The notes beneath the pieces were generated by a model that saw only the letters and a program-made list of their open reading frames with translations, was not told where the DNA came from and did no database searches. Positions 8,037 to 48,623 of a stretch of 64,000 bases of DNA are shown one piece after another. A program made the translations under genes and the position numbers. The first letter of the stretch is position 1. Each line of letters starts with the position of its first letter. Where the stretch lies: IMG/VR virus record IMGVR_UViG_3300043446_000435, positions 21,441-85,440 of that record; one strand, 5' to 3'. Origin of the DNA: a virus.

Positions 8037-8979
8037 TCTTAAATCCGCCTTCAGGAATCAGCTTCTTCACGATTTCTTCAACAGAAAGAATTTCGTTGAT
8101 GTGCTGAATTCCCTGACCAATGAACAAATGACCACCTGTTCCCGTGACTCCAGCTTCTAATCCTCTAGAGTTGTTATCGTTGTCCCACTCTTCAATTTCT
8201 TGGAATACGATTCCGTTCTGCGGGAGACCGTTCGTAACAATATGAACGATTTCTTTGTCAGCCAAAACTCTAGCTTTGCTTTCTATGTTGATCTTGCATT
8301 CCTTTGACATAGCAAACACAGTTCCTAATCCCACCGCAGTTGCGCCACAATTAAGAGCTTCTTGAATATCTCTAGAAGTAGCAATACCACCACTGGCTAT
8401 GATATCTACTTCAGGATACAGGAATTTGGCTTTACTGATTAGCTTGTAGATGTTAGGCGTCGAGTAGTGAACCATACCAGCTCCCTTATTCGACTTGACG
8501 ATAATCGCGTCGATGATTCTATGCTTAATCATCTTCTGCGCAACTTCTTCGACAGGAACAAACAAACACTTAACAAAAATCTTGACGCCTTTGTTCTTTA
8601 GCTTTATGACATACTCAAGATACGTTTCTAGCTTGAAGCTGTTTTCTTTGCTACCGCCGTAATAAGGAACGATCTCAATATGACGAAGACCAAACATTTC
8701 TACCAGTTCAGAAATCTGCTCGAAGTGAGTCATCAGAAAAAAATCTGTCATGCTCAAAAGAACTCGACAACTTCCTGTTTCTTTCATTAGAAGCAACATA
8801 TCACTACGAAACTTATCGTAGTAAAAAATCTTACCCCAGCTATGACTATAAGATGACATAACTAGGCTAGGAAAACATCCAGCTTTACTAACTGCAATTG
8901 CAAGGTGAATATCTGAAGTCCTATTCATAGGCAAACAGATAATTGGATGTTCAGAATCAACAATATCCCTATGGCTCAT
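7975..8979 (-). CDS. nitronate monooxygenase-like FMN enzyme
   Basis: 334 residues from the ATG at 8979 (the frame is open to 9066, but family homology begins at MSHRDIV). The FMN-binding TIM-barrel signature IIASGGIATSRDIQEALNCG followed by AVGLGTVF matches nitronate monooxygenases (2-nitropropane dioxygenase family). An internal KSNKGAGMVHY segment sits where the GxxAGGH loop normally lies, without the catalytic His context of classic members, so the substrate is uncertain. It is the only minus-strand gene in the left 40 kb. The last 20 codons run antisense through tRNA-Trp. No clear ribosome site is seen. Confidence 0.75.
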   Translation of the reverse strand: MSHRDIVDSEHPIICLPMNRTSDIHLAIAVSKAGCFPSLVMSSYSHSWGKIFYYDKFRSDMLLLMKETGSCRVLLSMTDFFLMTHFEQISELVEMFGLRHIEIVPYYGGSKENSFKLETYLEYVIKLKNKGVKIFVKCLFVPVEEVAQKMIKHRIIDAIIVKSNKGAGMVHYSTPNIYKLISKAKFLYPEVDIIASGGIATSRDIQEALNCGATAVGLGTVFAMSKECKINIESKARVLADKEIVHIVTNGLPQNGIVFQEIEEWDNDNNSRGLEAGVTGTGGHLFIGQGIQHINEILSVEEIVKKLIPEGGFKMAPVVGVEPTPSVLETDVLP

Positions 8980-42015: not shown

Positions 42016-42041
42016 GGGAGAGCTTCGGCTCTCCCTTTTTT
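42016..42041 (+). terminator. rho-independent terminator of gene 32
   Basis: GGGAGAGC-TTCG-GCTCTCCC followed by six T: a perfect 8-bp stem with a UUCG tetraloop. Another perfect 7-bp pair (TCACAGG 41981-41987 with CCTGTGA 42002-42008) precedes it. It separates the convergent gene 32 and the minus-strand virion operon. Confidence 0.95.
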
Positions 42042-44016
42042 ATTGATACTCCATCGTTTGCTTCGCAAGATACTCTTTAATCTTATCGTTCTGCGCATTC
42101 ATTGGTAAGTTTTGTCCAGACATCACACTCGTTTCACCAGGAGTTGAACTACCAATATTCTGTGTTGAAGAGTTACTCATAACGATAGGACCTGCGTCTC
42201 CTGCAGAAGCTTCTGGTGTAGGAGGTGGAGCGGGAGGAGTAGATGGAGCTGGAGGTGCAGCTTCTGGTGTTCCTGTTCCTGATGGCGATCCAGTCATTCC
42301 TTCTGCAGAGCCAGCTGTTGCAGTCGCTGCCGGTGCTGATGGCATAGTCGTGGCTGCAGGAGTTCCTGTCGATTCCCCTCCGCCAGTTGGCGCAGCAGCA
42401 GTAGGAGCTGGCGCAGGAGCAGCAGTAGGCGTACCAGCAGCCGATTCTCCTCCTCCTGTTCCTGCTCCTCCTCCGCTAGGAGCTTTCTCAGGAGTACCGG
42501 CACCCTCAGTACCACCAGAAGGCGCAACTGGAGCTTGTTGCTGCTGTTTCTGCTCGGGTCCACCAGCACCTTCAGTTCCACCACCGGCTGGAGCAGCAGG
42601 CGGAGTAGTTGCAGAGGCTCCTGCATTCTCTGTGATTTGTTTGCCACCACTCTGCACATCTGCGCGCAGTTTTCGTGCCATATTGACTTTTTCTTTTTCG
42701 TCGTCGGTCAAATCATTATAGACATCAATCGTTTTACCATCAGATGTAATAGAAGTAGGAACACCGCCTTCAAGTTGTGCTGTTACGTTTGCTGGATTCA
42801 ATCCGTTCTTAGCAGCAAGACCAGCAATTCTTTTATGTTTTGCTTCTGTTTCGTCAAGTCGATCATCAGCAGCTGCTCCAGCTGTTGGAGCTCCCTGACT
42901 TTCTTTTTGTCCTTCTTGCCATGCAGTCAGTGCTAACTTACCATGGAGAGGATCTGCTGCAATGTTATCAGGAAGTGGGATTCCTTTCTTACCCATTTCC
43001 TTATACATTTCTGCTTTCTTAGCTATCTCAGGATCAATATTGTTTGCTGCTGTAGGTGCTCCTTGTTGGGCAGGAGCTTTTCCTGTCATAGTAGGATTGC
43101 TTGCTGGATCCCTAAGAACCTGTTCTGTGTTATCCCACCAGCGTCCATCCTTGAGAGTAATGATATTACCCTTGATGCTTGCGATAACATTCTTAGCTTC
43201 TGAAGGCATCTTAATGATACCTTCGCGCATGAGGAAATCTGGAGGTGATAATTTCTGACGACTAATATCAGCACCAGCATTAGGTGCATTCGCGTCTGCT
43301 TCTGGTCCTTGAATTACTTCTGCTCGTTTAGCGCCAGATGCAATAGTGCGATCAAAGTTTTCGGCACCAAGCGGATCAGCTTCTTGTGCTTGCTTTCTTT
43401 GATAAGCTAATGCGATAAGAGTTCCTGCAACAGCTGTAACAGGAAGCGCTGCGCTACCCGCAAACGCACGAGCACCTTGCATAACCTTTGGACCATATTT
43501 CTTAGCTAGATCAAACGCATCTTTTGCTGTTTCAGCAAGACTAGCCAAGTCTAACATAGAATCTAAGAATGATTTCTTTTCTTCTGGAGGCGGAGGCGTA
43601 TCTGTTGTAGCAGCACCCTTTTCGCTTTCCTTAACTAGATTCCCAATAGTCGTGGGTTTGTCAGACGCAGGAACAGGTGTAAGCATAATAGAACGTAAGA
43701 AATCCATTCTACTTTGATTAAGTTGTTCGTTCACATCACGGAAACGTCTTGTAATATCACGATTCAGATCGCGCGTATTCTTAATCAAGTTTTCAAATGA
43801 TTTCATAATGTTCTTAGAAAGATCGCGCAGTTTGTTTAGCTCTTTACCGATAATATCAATAGAGCCGATCATAGATCTGAATATGTCTTTGTTCAGGAAG
43901 TCTGACGATACTTGTTCGACATTATCGTTAGCATTAGCAGGCGATTTACCAAAGAACGCACTTACACTTGGGCGTTCAAAAGACTGTCCACCAGTAACGA
44001 GTTTAGAAATAGTCAT
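42040..44016 (-). CDS. virion-associated protein with long Pro/Ala/Gly/Thr-rich tail
   Basis: 658 residues. Residues about 40-120 are a coiled coil (KELNKLRDLSKNIMKSFENL and on). A hydrophobic segment near 185-205 could enter a membrane. The C-terminal 200 residues are low-complexity Ala/Pro/Gly/Thr/Glu with short repeats such as GGGTEGAG. Transcribed last in the baseplate/lysin operon; its ATG overlaps the previous stop. Composition suits a tape-measure-like or extended tail protein. No enzymatic motif is seen. Confidence 0.65.
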   Translation of the reverse strand: MTISKLVTGGQSFERPSVSAFFGKSPANANDNVEQVSSDFLNKDIFRSMIGSIDIIGKELNKLRDLSKNIMKSFENLIKNTRDLNRDITRRFRDVNEQLNQSRMDFLRSIMLTPVPASDKPTTIGNLVKESEKGAATTDTPPPPEEKKSFLDSMLDLASLAETAKDAFDLAKKYGPKVMQGARAFAGSAALPVTAVAGTLIALAYQRKQAQEADPLGAENFDRTIASGAKRAEVIQGPEADANAPNAGADISRQKLSPPDFLMREGIIKMPSEAKNVIASIKGNIITLKDGRWWDNTEQVLRDPASNPTMTGKAPAQQGAPTAANNIDPEIAKKAEMYKEMGKKGIPLPDNIAADPLHGKLALTAWQEGQKESQGAPTAGAAADDRLDETEAKHKRIAGLAAKNGLNPANVTAQLEGGVPTSITSDGKTIDVYNDLTDDEKEKVNMARKLRADVQSGGKQITENAGASATTPPAAPAGGGTEGAGGPEQKQQQQAPVAPSGGTEGAGTPEKAPSGGGAGTGGGESAAGTPTAAPAPAPTAAAPTGGGESTGTPAATTMPSAPAATATAGSAEGMTGSPSGTGTPEAAPPAPSTPPAPPPTPEASAGDAGPIVMSNSSTQNIGSSTPGETSVMSGQNLPMNAQNDKIKEYLAKQTMEYQ

Positions 44017-47000
44017 TAGAATAACCTCAGAGCTTTACCTAGCGCAGCACCAGCTACCATCGCTAGAGGATTAAATCCACCTGGACGGCATTCACAACCG
44101 CTCGGTATGCTGCTTCCTGTTCTTACGAATCGTGTATTGTTAACTGTTTGAGTATTATTTACTATCACTTGCTGAACGCCAGTCGGAGCAGTTCCTTGCT
44201 GAATTGCGCGCTCAGCTGATGCGTTAGCAAGCGCCGCTCCTGCTACTGTTGTTGGAGCTGTGGGAGCATTTGCAACTGCTGTTCCAGGAGCCGGCTCTCC
44301 ACCCGCAGGAGGAGTATAACTGCTTCCTCCAGCCAACTGAATATGTGGTGGATCGCTTGCTCCGAATGGATACGTGATACCATACTTAGCTAGAATGCCT
44401 TGGAAATCTGATCCTACGCCTGGACTAATATCAATCGCTTGTCCGCGACCATGAGCAGATCCGCGTCCAGATCCTGGAACTGTGTATGTTTGTCCCTTAT
44501 AGGTGATCGTAGTTGTTTTCTCAGGAGCAGCAGGAATATGAATTCCAGGCTCTTTAAGAATACGCCCGCGAACCCATAGTTGTGCTTGATATTCGTCACC
44601 GCGATATGCTGAGTTGATACGAACAGGTTTACCATACTCTTTAGCTGCTGCAAATAATCCTTGCAATAGCTTTGGATCAACCTTTGATATGTCAACTTTT
44701 CCAGACTCGAATGTTACGTTCGCTGGCTTTTCTCCGGTCATTTGTGCAGTAGCTGCTTGATTAGCTGCGCCAGCTGCGCTTACTGCTGTTGGAGCTTCTG
44801 CTTTCGTTGGTGTGCCTGCGGCAGCTGCTTCATTAGCAGCTCCAGCTGCTGCAACTGCTGTCGTAGGAGCTCCCGTAGGTCCGTTCTGTCGTGTAACTCT
44901 ACCAGTTCTAAATCCCTCAACCTTTTCCATAGCGTTCAACATAGCAACTCTTTGCTGTGCGTTCAACTGTGATAAAGGCGTAGATGCAGGAACTCCTACA
45001 GCATTTGCTACTGTGTTGACATAGTTCTGTGAGTTATTTTCATTTGGTGGAGCATAGCGATAAATGGCTTGCTGAATATTCATTCCAGCATAACCTCTTC
45101 CCTCAAACAACAGTGCTTCTTTTGCTTTACGTCCAGCATCATACGATGGGAAAATAGCAAAGCGTCCGTCACTTCCCAGAGCACCAAATCTCTTAGCGAA
45201 GTCGCCGTATTGAATATTTCCTGGATTATTATTACGCCAGTTGCGTGCGCCGTCTCGACGTTCTGTCGATCCGTCCGCAAGCTGCACGACATTATATCCA
45301 GCGCCAGCTTCTACCACTTTAACAACTTCGCCTGGAGCTGCGCCAGCTCCTGCCGTTCCTACGTCTGGAGTTGTTTTTTGTGGTGTCCCCGCTGCAATAG
45401 CTCCACCAGCACCAAAGCCTCCTCCTGATGGAGCTGCTTGCGGAGTACCTGCTGCAATAGCTCCTGGAGCACCAAATCCTTCTGTAGGAGCGCCTGGAGC
45501 ACCTGGGAGTGGAGTAGCTCCAGATCTATCTACTGCTACAGATCCACCTTCTCCCTTAGCCATTGAGAAGTGCATTGTGTCTTTTGACGAGCGCCAGTTG
45601 CCGCCCCATCCAAGACCATACTTAGCAGCCATTGCTCCCACATTCGACGGCATATCCGTGACTGTGCGTCCGTCAAATAAATGCGGATTCTGTGATGGAT
45701 TAATATCAATCGCTACACCAAGTGAGTGATAACTCTTTGTTCCCGTTCCTGCGATATTACGATTAGCATATCCACCGATGCTTTTAATCTTATATCCGCT
45801 GTTCTCGAGCTCGTTAACAAATCCTTGGAAATTAGCAGCATAAGGAGCAGCTACGTCAAATGCTTTTCCACCAGGAGTTTTGAGCGTAGTCATCCCTGGA
45901 GTCTTGCTTGGCGTTCCTGCTCCACCTTGTTGCTGTTGCTGCTGCGCTGGAGGAGCTCCTGCTGGAGGAGGAGCAGATGGTTGTTGTTGGAATAGACTGC
46001 CGCCAGCGGCACCCGTTGGTCCTGTACCTGTATCGGGAGCAGTGCCTTGAGTTGAGCGCTTCGTACCGTCATCTAGATTTTCAGTTTGTGGTGTAGGGAT
46101 ATTCTGTTTATTGTCGCCGGCAAATAACTTATACGCACCATATGCAGCTGCTGCGCCGCCAACGGCTCCAACACCAATTCCAGCGGCAACCATTCCAATA
46201 TTTCTTTGTGTTCTTATCTGTCCGATACGCTCAGCACGTTCCTGAACTTTTTGTCCTTGTGCGACTTTCTGTTCATCAGACATCGCAGCAACACGCTGCT
46301 GATAACGTGATGATGTTCTTGGTTTTTTAGCTGGAGCTACTCGTTTCGTAGTAGGAGCAGAACGGGTTACTTTTCCTTTCTTACTCCCAGCAGATTTCTT
46401 AGGAAGAGTTGGTCCTTTCTTTTCGCCACTCGATTTCGTAGGAGCTTTGATGCCAGTCAGCATCTCCATAATCTTTTCTTGAAACTCGTCGTTCTGTTTT
46501 GTTAACGAGTCAAGCAGCATATTATTTTGCGTGGCGAAATTATCTAATACGTTCTGAAACTCAGTAAATGCTACAGGAACACGATTCATCATTGCATTAT
46601 TCGTAGCAATCGTATTCTCTGTGACTTTACCCAGACGTTCGATACGAGTATTGACTTCGCGCTGCTGTTTTTCCGTAATAGCCTTTTCAGTCTTAGCTAG
46701 ATTTGGCTTTATCTTTGTCAGATGTCCTTTGATCGCATCAGCTGTTTCGTTTTTCTGTAACAGCATCTTAGCTATGCGTTCGGGAGCTGGCTGACCATTT
46801 TCGTCAACGATAGCTCCCTCTGGATTGTAATAATACTTGGAATTGCCGATCTTAGCGGCTACGCTCTTAAGACCCTTGCGGCGTTTACGAGTTTTGATTG
46901 GCTTGACTTCAGGAGGATCAGCAGGAGTAGGAGGCTGTTGCGCTAGAGCGTCGGCTGCCGCTTTCTTAGCTTTGTCGCTACCCTTTTCCATAATGATACG

Positions 47001-47030
47001 AAGGATTTCTTCGTCATCTCTATCTGCCAT
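44016..47030 (-). CDS. multi-domain virion lysin with three peptidoglycan-degrading domains
   Basis: 1004 residues. Residues 1-200 are charged and coiled-coil, 278-300 a Gly/Ala transmembrane-like helix, and linkers are Ala/Pro/Gly/Gln-rich. Residues 390-490 form an M15 (VanY/D-Ala-D-Ala carboxypeptidase-like) domain with H435, D442 and H487. Residues 590-710 (NNNPGNIQYG and AIFPSYDAGRKA) resemble phage tail lysozyme-like domains. Residues 770-900 are a second M15-like domain with H860, D867 and H896. It would digest the cell wall during DNA injection. C-terminal GCECRPGG precedes a hydrophobic end. Confidence 0.8.
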   Translation of the reverse strand: MADRDDEEILRIIMEKGSDKAKKAAADALAQQPPTPADPPEVKPIKTRKRRKGLKSVAAKIGNSKYYYNPEGAIVDENGQPAPERIAKMLLQKNETADAIKGHLTKIKPNLAKTEKAITEKQQREVNTRIERLGKVTENTIATNNAMMNRVPVAFTEFQNVLDNFATQNNMLLDSLTKQNDEFQEKIMEMLTGIKAPTKSSGEKKGPTLPKKSAGSKKGKVTRSAPTTKRVAPAKKPRTSSRYQQRVAAMSDEQKVAQGQKVQERAERIGQIRTQRNIGMVAAGIGVGAVGGAAAAYGAYKLFAGDNKQNIPTPQTENLDDGTKRSTQGTAPDTGTGPTGAAGGSLFQQQPSAPPPAGAPPAQQQQQQGGAGTPSKTPGMTTLKTPGGKAFDVAAPYAANFQGFVNELENSGYKIKSIGGYANRNIAGTGTKSYHSLGVAIDINPSQNPHLFDGRTVTDMPSNVGAMAAKYGLGWGGNWRSSKDTMHFSMAKGEGGSVAVDRSGATPLPGAPGAPTEGFGAPGAIAAGTPQAAPSGGGFGAGGAIAAGTPQKTTPDVGTAGAGAAPGEVVKVVEAGAGYNVVQLADGSTERRDGARNWRNNNPGNIQYGDFAKRFGALGSDGRFAIFPSYDAGRKAKEALLFEGRGYAGMNIQQAIYRYAPPNENNSQNYVNTVANAVGVPASTPLSQLNAQQRVAMLNAMEKVEGFRTGRVTRQNGPTGAPTTAVAAAGAANEAAAAGTPTKAEAPTAVSAAGAANQAATAQMTGEKPANVTFESGKVDISKVDPKLLQGLFAAAKEYGKPVRINSAYRGDEYQAQLWVRGRILKEPGIHIPAAPEKTTTITYKGQTYTVPGSGRGSAHGRGQAIDISPGVGSDFQGILAKYGITYPFGASDPPHIQLAGGSSYTPPAGGEPAPGTAVANAPTAPTTVAGAALANASAERAIQQGTAPTGVQQVIVNNTQTVNNTRFVRTGSSIPSGCECRPGGFNPLAMVAGAALGKALRLF

Positions 47031-47213
47031 TTACCGCCTGCGTTTTTCTTGTTCTTCCTTTAGCTTCTCAAGGTGCTCGATGAGCATTTTAACATAGATA
47101 TCCCTCTCCCACGGAATCATACCATCTATGTCACTCAGCGCATATTTGTGGTGCTGCATTAACGAAAAGTTGGTTTGGTAATAATTCGCCAACGTATTAT
47201 GAGAGAGGATCAT
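47031..47213 (-). CDS. small baseplate-hub assembly protein, probable frameshift partner
   Basis: 60 residues from ATG 47213 (MILSHNTLANYYQTNFSLMQ), charged helical end EHLEKLKEEQEKRRR. Its position behind a gp26-type gene is where T4-like phages carry a short hub assembly protein. The start overlaps the gp26 stop (TAATG). The frame is open well into the upstream gene and lies in the -1 frame at a T8 run, so a fused gp26-ORF product could be made. Confidence 0.65.
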   Translation of the reverse strand: MILSHNTLANYYQTNFSLMQHHKYALSDIDGMIPWERDIYVKMLIEHLEKLKEEQEKRRR

Positions 47214-47923
47214 TAAAAAAAATCGGACATTCCCTCTAGTGTAACCGTATCTTCTTGTCCACAACCACGGCACTTATAGCTGAACGTATGCTTGAGCTTT
47301 GGCATCGTAGAAATGAATTCCATGACGCGCATGAACTGCTCATTGTTCAGTGACTCGATAAAGTTGATCGAATCTTCAAGATTATCTGGTTCGTAAATGC
47401 TATCCTCGTCATATACTGACACGATACATTTGGCTAACATCTCAATTTCGTCAGAACCTTCAGATACCATACGAACATCGTTAATCGTAGGATAACGTAG
47501 CTCGAGCCCTAGTTTATCGTCGAGCTTGACTTTATTCGTATGCTTTTCGTCTTTCTGAACCTTGACTCGCTCAAGATTGATTTCTACAGGAGTTACCGCA
47601 TCACACGCGATACCCTGATAGTTTACTCCGCCAGTATGACGATACTCCAGCTTTACGACTTCGCTAATTGACTTGGCACGAATGTTGATAAAGATATATT
47701 CCAAATCAAAATAAGGAATCTTTTCTACATTAAACGTCTCGTCAAGAACGCAAGCTGAGATAACATCTTTCACCGCGTCAATCATGTCGATCGTATCTTC
47801 AGACTGAGCAGCCATCAACAGAGCTTTTTCTTCTTTTACTAAGAACGGGCGAAACGATATACGCTCGCCAGTCGATGGAATGTCTAATGCAAATCGCGGT
47901 GCTGCTAGTTTTGGTAATGCCAT
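47213..47923 (-). CDS. 26: gp26-like baseplate hub protein
   Basis: 236 residues. RFALDIPSTGERISFRPFLVKEEKALLMA is the typical start of T4-like gp26 baseplate hub proteins, and KIPYFDLEYIFINIRAKS is a second conserved block. The C-terminus has CRGCGQEDTVTL, a possible zinc knuckle. The gene ends with GAT TTT TTT TAA, eight T in a row. Confidence 0.8.
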   Translation of the reverse strand: MALPKLAAPRFALDIPSTGERISFRPFLVKEEKALLMAAQSEDTIDMIDAVKDVISACVLDETFNVEKIPYFDLEYIFINIRAKSISEVVKLEYRHTGGVNYQGIACDAVTPVEINLERVKVQKDEKHTNKVKLDDKLGLELRYPTINDVRMVSEGSDEIEMLAKCIVSVYDEDSIYEPDNLEDSINFIESLNNEQFMRVMEFISTMPKLKHTFSYKCRGCGQEDTVTLEGMSDFF

Positions 47924-47939
47924 AATTTACTCCATGCTG

Positions 47940-48623
47940 TTAACGATCAATTTTCTTTCCAGGTAATTCTTTCGTGTAATTATATTCACGAGCTTGTCGA
48001 GCTGTTTCAGCTTGTGTTGAATTTAAGAACGTGCGTTGAGCTTCAATCGCATAACGATATGTCATTTCGACTTGCAATTTGCCATATCCTTCGTCACCCC
48101 ACGACATCTGAATATCGTTGACATTTGATGGATAAGCCTCGCGCAATTTAATGTTATATGTCTCGACGTATTTCCCTTCACCTTTGGTGCCTTTAACTCC
48201 ATCAGTGATAGCGTGAGAATATTGAACGATATCAACTTCTCCCCATGCATCGTCATAGTATAGCGAATCAAATGGGCTATCAAAAACAGCATTATAGTTC
48301 GTGCGCGAGTGACCGATAAAGTGATCTTGCCATTTCATAAAGGCTTCGCGCTCACGCATGTCGCGCGAAAGAATAACGGTAAACGTCACTGGCTGATGCG
48401 AAAAGCGATATGGAATGCGACGAACAGGACCATGATAGTTCTGGTCTAGCGTCTGTAGTGTTCTTCCCGGTAGATTCACAGACTCGATACGAAACGCCAT
48501 ACCATTGCGCATCATAGGAGCTAGAATCAGAGGCGCTTTTAGAATACGAGCTTCAAAGAAACCGGTATGCGCGATACCAGACTGAGCAATTTCCGAGTTG
48601 AATGTGCTAACATTAAATGGCAT
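47940..48623 (-). CDS. tail-tube-fold baseplate protein (gp54/gp19-like)
   Basis: 227 residues. FEARILKAPLILAPMM, then MAFRIESVNLPGRTLQTLD and PVTFTVILSRDMREREAFMKW, belong to the tail-tube fold shared by gp19, gp48 and gp54 of T4-like phages. Since gp48 is at 49731, this is best interpreted as the tail tube initiator gp54 or a tube protein. Strand-rich; no cleavage or enzyme motif. Confidence 0.6.
   Translation of the reverse strand: MPFNVSTFNSEIAQSGIAHTGFFEARILKAPLILAPMMRNGMAFRIESVNLPGRTLQTLDQNYHGPVRRIPYRFSHQPVTFTVILSRDMREREAFMKWQDHFIGHSRTNYNAVFDSPFDSLYYDDAWGEVDIVQYSHAITDGVKGTKGEGKYVETYNIKLREAYPSNVNDIQMSWGDEGYGKLQVEMTYRYAIEAQRTFLNSTQAETARQAREYNYTKELPGKKIDR

Follow-up and report, generated by a model that had tools for sequence, protein, structure and literature searches.

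Probable -1 programmed frameshifting joins gp26 to a gp51-like domain in a T4-like virus known from metagenomes and in many of its relatives

How does a T4-like virus that is known from metagenomes make the short and the long form of its putative tail assembly chaperone? The question is raised by two overlapping reading frames in an 85,440-base IMG/VR virus record, of which a 64,000-nucleotide stretch (the window) was analysed. The minus strand of the window carries a gp26-like gene (47923..47213) that encodes a 236-aa protein ending in EGMSDFF, the short chaperone form (TAC-N), and closes with the codons ATG TCC GAT TTT TTT TAA. According to the original prediction, this gene ends in GAT TTT TTT TAA with a run of eight T, the following ORF is open in the -1 frame upstream of its own ATG, and a programmed -1 frameshift may fuse the two. 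The first two statements are exact. The T8 run lies at 47222..47215 on the minus strand and includes the slippery heptamer T TTT TTT (47216..47222), directly followed by the 0-frame stop codon TAA (47213..47215), both being read from the sequence itself. The -1 frame crosses the run as F F L M I L S H N T L... and forms a 61-codon extension (47031..47216, minus strand) that begins LMILSHNTLANYYQTNFSLMQHHKYALSDIDGMIPWERDIYV..., encodes a gp51-like C-terminal domain (LMILSHNTLANYYQTNF...PWERDIYV...) and stops at 47033..47031. Together, gp26 and the extension would make a predicted 297-aa fusion (TAC-NC) with the junction sequence ...GMSDFFLMILSHNTL....

Judging from sequence comparisons, a programmed -1 frameshift very probably fuses gp26 to the gp51-like domain, as had been proposed. 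Support comes from the conserved relative frame, the codon footprint at the heptamer, the relatives that lack a start codon for the second ORF, a Shine-Dalgarno-like (SD-like) element, downstream RNA structure and the in-frame fusion of T4-type phages.

The identity of the two parts is clear from profile scans. In a Pfam scan, gp26 matches PF12322, T4_baseplate (E=1.2e-57), and in a PHROGs scan it matches phrog_150 (E=3.4e-65, profile positions 5-232 of 282). The -1 extension matches phrog_634, “baseplate hub assembly catalyst” (E=7.4e-27), and also the C-terminal part of phrog_150 (profile positions 236-278) in the same kind of scan. The 85-kb record holds one phrog_150 locus, split between two frames, profile positions 3-233 in the first and 226-278 in the -1 frame; no second full-length in-frame gp26-gp51 gene was found within this record, which may be a fragment. 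The chaperone pair of Vladimirov et al. 2022 is said to be gp26/gp51, and homology of both window parts to the T4-type proteins was tested here: phrog_150 and phrog_634 are shared with gp26 and gp51 of RB32, a close relative of T4.

In T4 and its near relatives, the same families (PF12322, phrog_150, phrog_634) are found as in the window; there, however, the long form is a separate in-frame gene, gp51, whereas in the present phage it would arise by -1 slippage from one locus. The gp51 of RB32 (249 aa) matches phrog_150 over positions 13-280 of 282, i.e. it contains the gp26-like part and the C-terminal domain in one frame, and the short gp26 of RB32 matches positions 14-235 only. The two genes of Aeromonas phage 31 are arranged as in RB32, and Pseudotevenvirus leN has them in tandem, the long gene first and the short gp26 directly after it. 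The PRFect paper also reports that some T4-like phages carry one short gene and one fused long gene instead (PMC10885494). Thus, phages with two genes and phages with a slip site point to two ways of making the short and long forms among T4-like phages, and the wider distribution of the frameshift arrangement suggests that it is the older state.

Conservation of the junction was followed in two scans, both of which selected loci on conserved gp26 peptides away from the junction. In the first, viral contigs searched with gp26 yielded 74 usable loci, and in the second, an alignment of diverse gp26 proteins yielded 79, with 17 contigs common to both; the pooled loci amount to 136 distinct sequences, mostly metagenomic. 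The gp51-like domain lies in the -1 frame in all 74 loci of the first scan, as read off the listing, and in all 79 of the second. All 74 loci, again as read off the listing, have a TTT TTN pair at the junction with a T before it; in the second scan, T TTT TTY is found in 75 loci, T TTT TTA in one and G/A TTT TTT TAA in three. Relatives without the T run, which would speak against frameshifting, were sought, and among the 136 distinct sequences T TTT TTN is kept at the junction by all but one small lineage of three loci, with T7 preceded by G or A. The distance from the heptamer to the 0-frame stop varies from 0 to 8 codons, and the -1 frame is constant. The same arrangement occurs in isolates, namely in Kyanoviridae, Emdodecavirus, Pootjesviridae, Ceceduovirus, Vibrio phages D486 and EniLVp02, and Desulfovibrio phage 7757; for those isolates that entered the statistics, the junction was located through a search for TTT TT near the end of gp26.

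Such runs are rare: each strand of the 64-kb window has a single homopolymer of eight or more T or A, and T TTT TTY is found in frame twice among 19,598 codons, counting ORFs of 100 aa or longer. This rarity, together with the conservation of the site in relatives, indicates that the T8 at the end of gp26 is more than chance. The other in-frame T TTT TTY, at 8743 on the minus strand, lies within a 363-aa ORF; the -1 frame there stops almost at once, so it is probably not a fusion site.

Codon choice at the junction is more telling than the run itself. Codon statistics were computed on 41 sequences less than 70% identical, treated as independent in the P values. The Phe pair is preceded by GAT, AGT, TCT, AAT or GCT, a codon ending in T in 41/41 although the residue varies (Asp, Ser, Asn, Ala), and the first Phe is encoded by TTT in all 41 (background 56%, P=7e-11). 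The last heptamer codon is free, with TTC in 21, TTT in 17, TTG in two and TTA in one of the 41 sequences. In the subset of 18 sequences below 50% identity, the two constraints are still significant at about 1e-5 and 1e-6. In 46 gp26 genes examined, in-frame T TTT TTY has 43 matches, which are the 43 junction sites ending in TTY, and none elsewhere. Since the synonymous choice is fixed where slippage needs it and free at the last codon, the footprint is that of a slippery heptamer and not of protein conservation. Conservation of Phe-Phe in the protein alone, as the cause of the T run, is ruled out by these statistics.

On its 5' side, the heptamer is preceded by an SD-like element, GAGGGA (47231..47236, minus strand), about 10 nt upstream; its GAGGG ends about 9-10 nt before the heptamer. 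The mean anti-SD duplex energy peaks at this place at -6.1 kcal/mol, compared with a background of -0.06 +/- 2.3, and the Glu codon within the element is GAG rather than GAA by 20 to 5 (P=1e-7), whereas the rest of gp26 prefers GAA. This element is likely an internal stimulator of -1 slippage.

Downstream, the next 40 codons form a more stable structure than synonymous shuffles do (mean z -2.54 vs -0.58 in gp26 control regions, P=1e-8, 29 diverse loci). In the window, a stem can be drawn whose 5' arm (TCCTCTCTCAT, 47199..47209, minus strand) starts about 6 nt after the heptamer and whose 3' arm (GTGGGAGAGGG, 47102..47112, minus strand) lies inside the PWER codons, enclosing about 86 nt. The arms are paired in 98% of cells in a group of 22 sequences picked for having the stem, against 38-71% in slid controls, and they fall in conserved codons. 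The stem is stronger than synonymous-codon shuffles (z about -3 to -6), and double-sided changes are seen at three pairs (C-G to T-A in L045, T-A to G-C in L119/L120 and C-G to T-A in L152). A long-range stem common to all relatives is unsupported, with at least 9 of 11 pairs formed in only 47 of 106 distinct sequences of the same spacing. Many sequences without it show local hairpins, strong at the same place in L049, L096, L122 and L123. There is about an even chance that the full signal has three parts, i.e. the SD-like element, T TTT TTT and a stem that closes an 86-nt loop and has its arms in the conserved LSH and WER codons, and that other lineages have swapped this stem for local hairpins while keeping the heptamer, the stimulator turning over faster than the slip site.

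The second ORF might instead be a separate gene, translated by coupling at the sequence TAATG, with the T run merely reflecting conservation of Phe-Phe. An ATG (47211..47213, minus strand) does overlap the gp26 stop codon in the window and in most of its closest relatives, which in the window itself would also permit termination-reinitiation, and a gene of its own for the “baseplate hub assembly catalyst” is annotated in many records. The start codon, however, is not conserved: within 9 codons past the slip point, 22 of the 41 diverse relatives lack an ATG and 13 lack ATG, GTG and TTG alike, and the residues right after the slip point, upstream of the first possible start, are conserved even in relatives without a start codon. 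The GAGGG, at about 17 nt from the ATG, is too far for normal initiation, and yet it is biased by codon choice; the synonymous codons are fixed exactly at the positions critical for slippage and free at the last one, and T4-type phages possess the in-frame fusion. A separate gene is therefore highly improbable. A combination of both routes, in which the fusion is made by frameshifting and some free C-terminal protein starts at the overlapping ATG, accommodates the TAATG of the window alongside the codon-level signs of slippage, and the ATG could be a minor separate start. We consider this unlikely for the window: the ATG is lost in near relatives, which have TAATAG instead (L018, L024, L025, L028-L031, L035, L036), and since it is not conserved among them, a free C-terminal product is unlikely to be needed.

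Runs of eight identical bases are error-prone, and a sequencing or assembly error in the homopolymer could make one ORF look like two. Nevertheless, 136 distinct sequences, drawn from many metagenomes, share the arrangement, as do isolate genomes, and the 0-frame stop moves relative to the heptamer while the -1 frame stays constant, which leaves this explanation with a negligible probability.

Under the favoured reading, programmed -1 frameshifting, most ribosomes would stop at TAA and release the 236-aa gp26 (TAC-N). A minority would pause at T TTT TTT, with help from GAGGG bound to 16S rRNA, a stop codon occupying the A site and the downstream stem, and would slip back one base to read TTA ATG ATC..., producing the 297-aa fusion (TAC-NC) with its gp51-like C-terminal domain. 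By analogy with lambda G/GT, tail tube subunits may be coated or recruited by the short form, and during tail assembly the long form may tether to the tape measure or hub. From the comparisons, we infer the occurrence of slippage and its efficiency as well as the chaperone function and partners of the two products; the locus would encode a short/long tail assembly chaperone pair of the lambda G/GT type in a T4-like myovirus.

Gene order and fold bear on the same question. Upstream of gp26 lies a tail-tube-family gene (phrog_45, 47940-48623), and downstream, in the tape measure position, a 1004-aa ORF (44016-47030, minus strand) with one match to a phrog named tape measure. Two domains of the latter ORF are peptidases of the M15/VanY type, and a third is lysozyme-like. 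Next to it, a 658-aa ORF (42040-44016, minus strand) has a long low-complexity C-terminal region rich in Pro, Ala and Gly and no Pfam match. An AlphaFold2 model of gp26 (pLDDT 86) ranked the HK97 tail assembly chaperone gp13 (2OB9) best among solved structures, at a non-significant level (prob 0.63, E 0.66); 3FGX, which has been described as a tail assembly chaperone (PMC9603447), was also listed (prob 0.47, E 2.9, not significant). A sequence search of the PDB with gp26 returned nothing relevant.

The proposed likeness to G/GT holds at the level of arrangement, with overlapping ORFs, the second of which is in the -1 frame and open through the junction, and a conserved slippery heptamer near the end of the first. 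Frameshifts of lambda G/GT and of similar tail assembly chaperones were reportedly described by Xu, Hendrix and Duda in 2004. As in lambda, a short protein would be accompanied by a rare -1 fusion, and the locus sits between a tail-tube-family gene and a large ORF that may be a tail gene. The slippery sequence of lambda is G GGA AAG, in contrast to T TTT TTT here, and the present virus is a contractile-tailed T4-like one; Pfam and PHROGs scans gave no family match to lambda G or T for the window ORFs. The E. coli dnaX signal for -1 frameshifting consists of an SD-like element about 10 nt upstream, the heptamer A AAA AAG and a stem about 6 nt downstream, which is the same three-part layout with the same spacings as at this locus; here, however, the heptamer is T TTT TTT and the stem encloses about 86 nt within the coding sequence of the extension. 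Another parallel is provided by phage Adele and the tail assembly chaperone loci of Vandenendeviridae and Andersonviridae, where a -1 frameshift is placed at a conserved poly-T and the -1 frame is open over 200 bp (PMC12846349), as in the present case, although the motif is GTTTTT and the phage families are different.

In 2022, Vladimirov, Gautam and Davidson reportedly identified the tail assembly chaperones of T4-like phages (Virology 566:9-15), and a passage of PMC12846349 citing this work refers to poly-T as known -1 slippery sites in the TAC-N genes of these phages. The phenomenon is therefore known; in the open literature searched, no papers on gp26/gp51 frameshifting in cyanophages were found. 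New aspects may be how broad the comparison is, the SD-like element and the downstream stems that alternate. A strong comparative case emerges that many T4-like phages make the chaperone pair by frameshifting and T4 by two genes, the former covering Kyanoviridae, Emdodecavirus, Pootjesviridae, Aeromonas Ceceduovirus, Vibrio phages and many uncultured viruses, and these phages are a clean system in which to study the mutual replacement of frameshifting and gene duplication.

The relatives also supply naturally occurring variants of the slippery signal. The exceptional lineage (L118-L120) has GAG/GAA TTT TTT TAA, i.e. T7 after a purine, and tandem slippage on X XXY YYZ is therefore excluded; the P-site tRNA alone could still slip while the A site holds the stop codon. 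In two Ackermannviridae (L088, 3190-3300; L089, 3260-3320), the gp26 relatives end in GAA ATT TTC ATT TAA, and in Vibrio phage K446 (L090, 3050-3110) in TCA CTT TTC AAG TAA; in all three, the gp51-like domain is still open in the -1 frame, but without a canonical X XXY YYZ heptamer. In the Kuttervirus record, an ATG near the junction is likewise missing.

In the isolate records examined, “gp51” appears as a short gene of its own, in many cases with the start set downstream at the cost of conserved residues, or it is missed. In the Kyanoviridae isolates L081, L097, L095 and L084, it is annotated from a far-downstream internal start or omitted, and the conserved residues after the slip point are lost.
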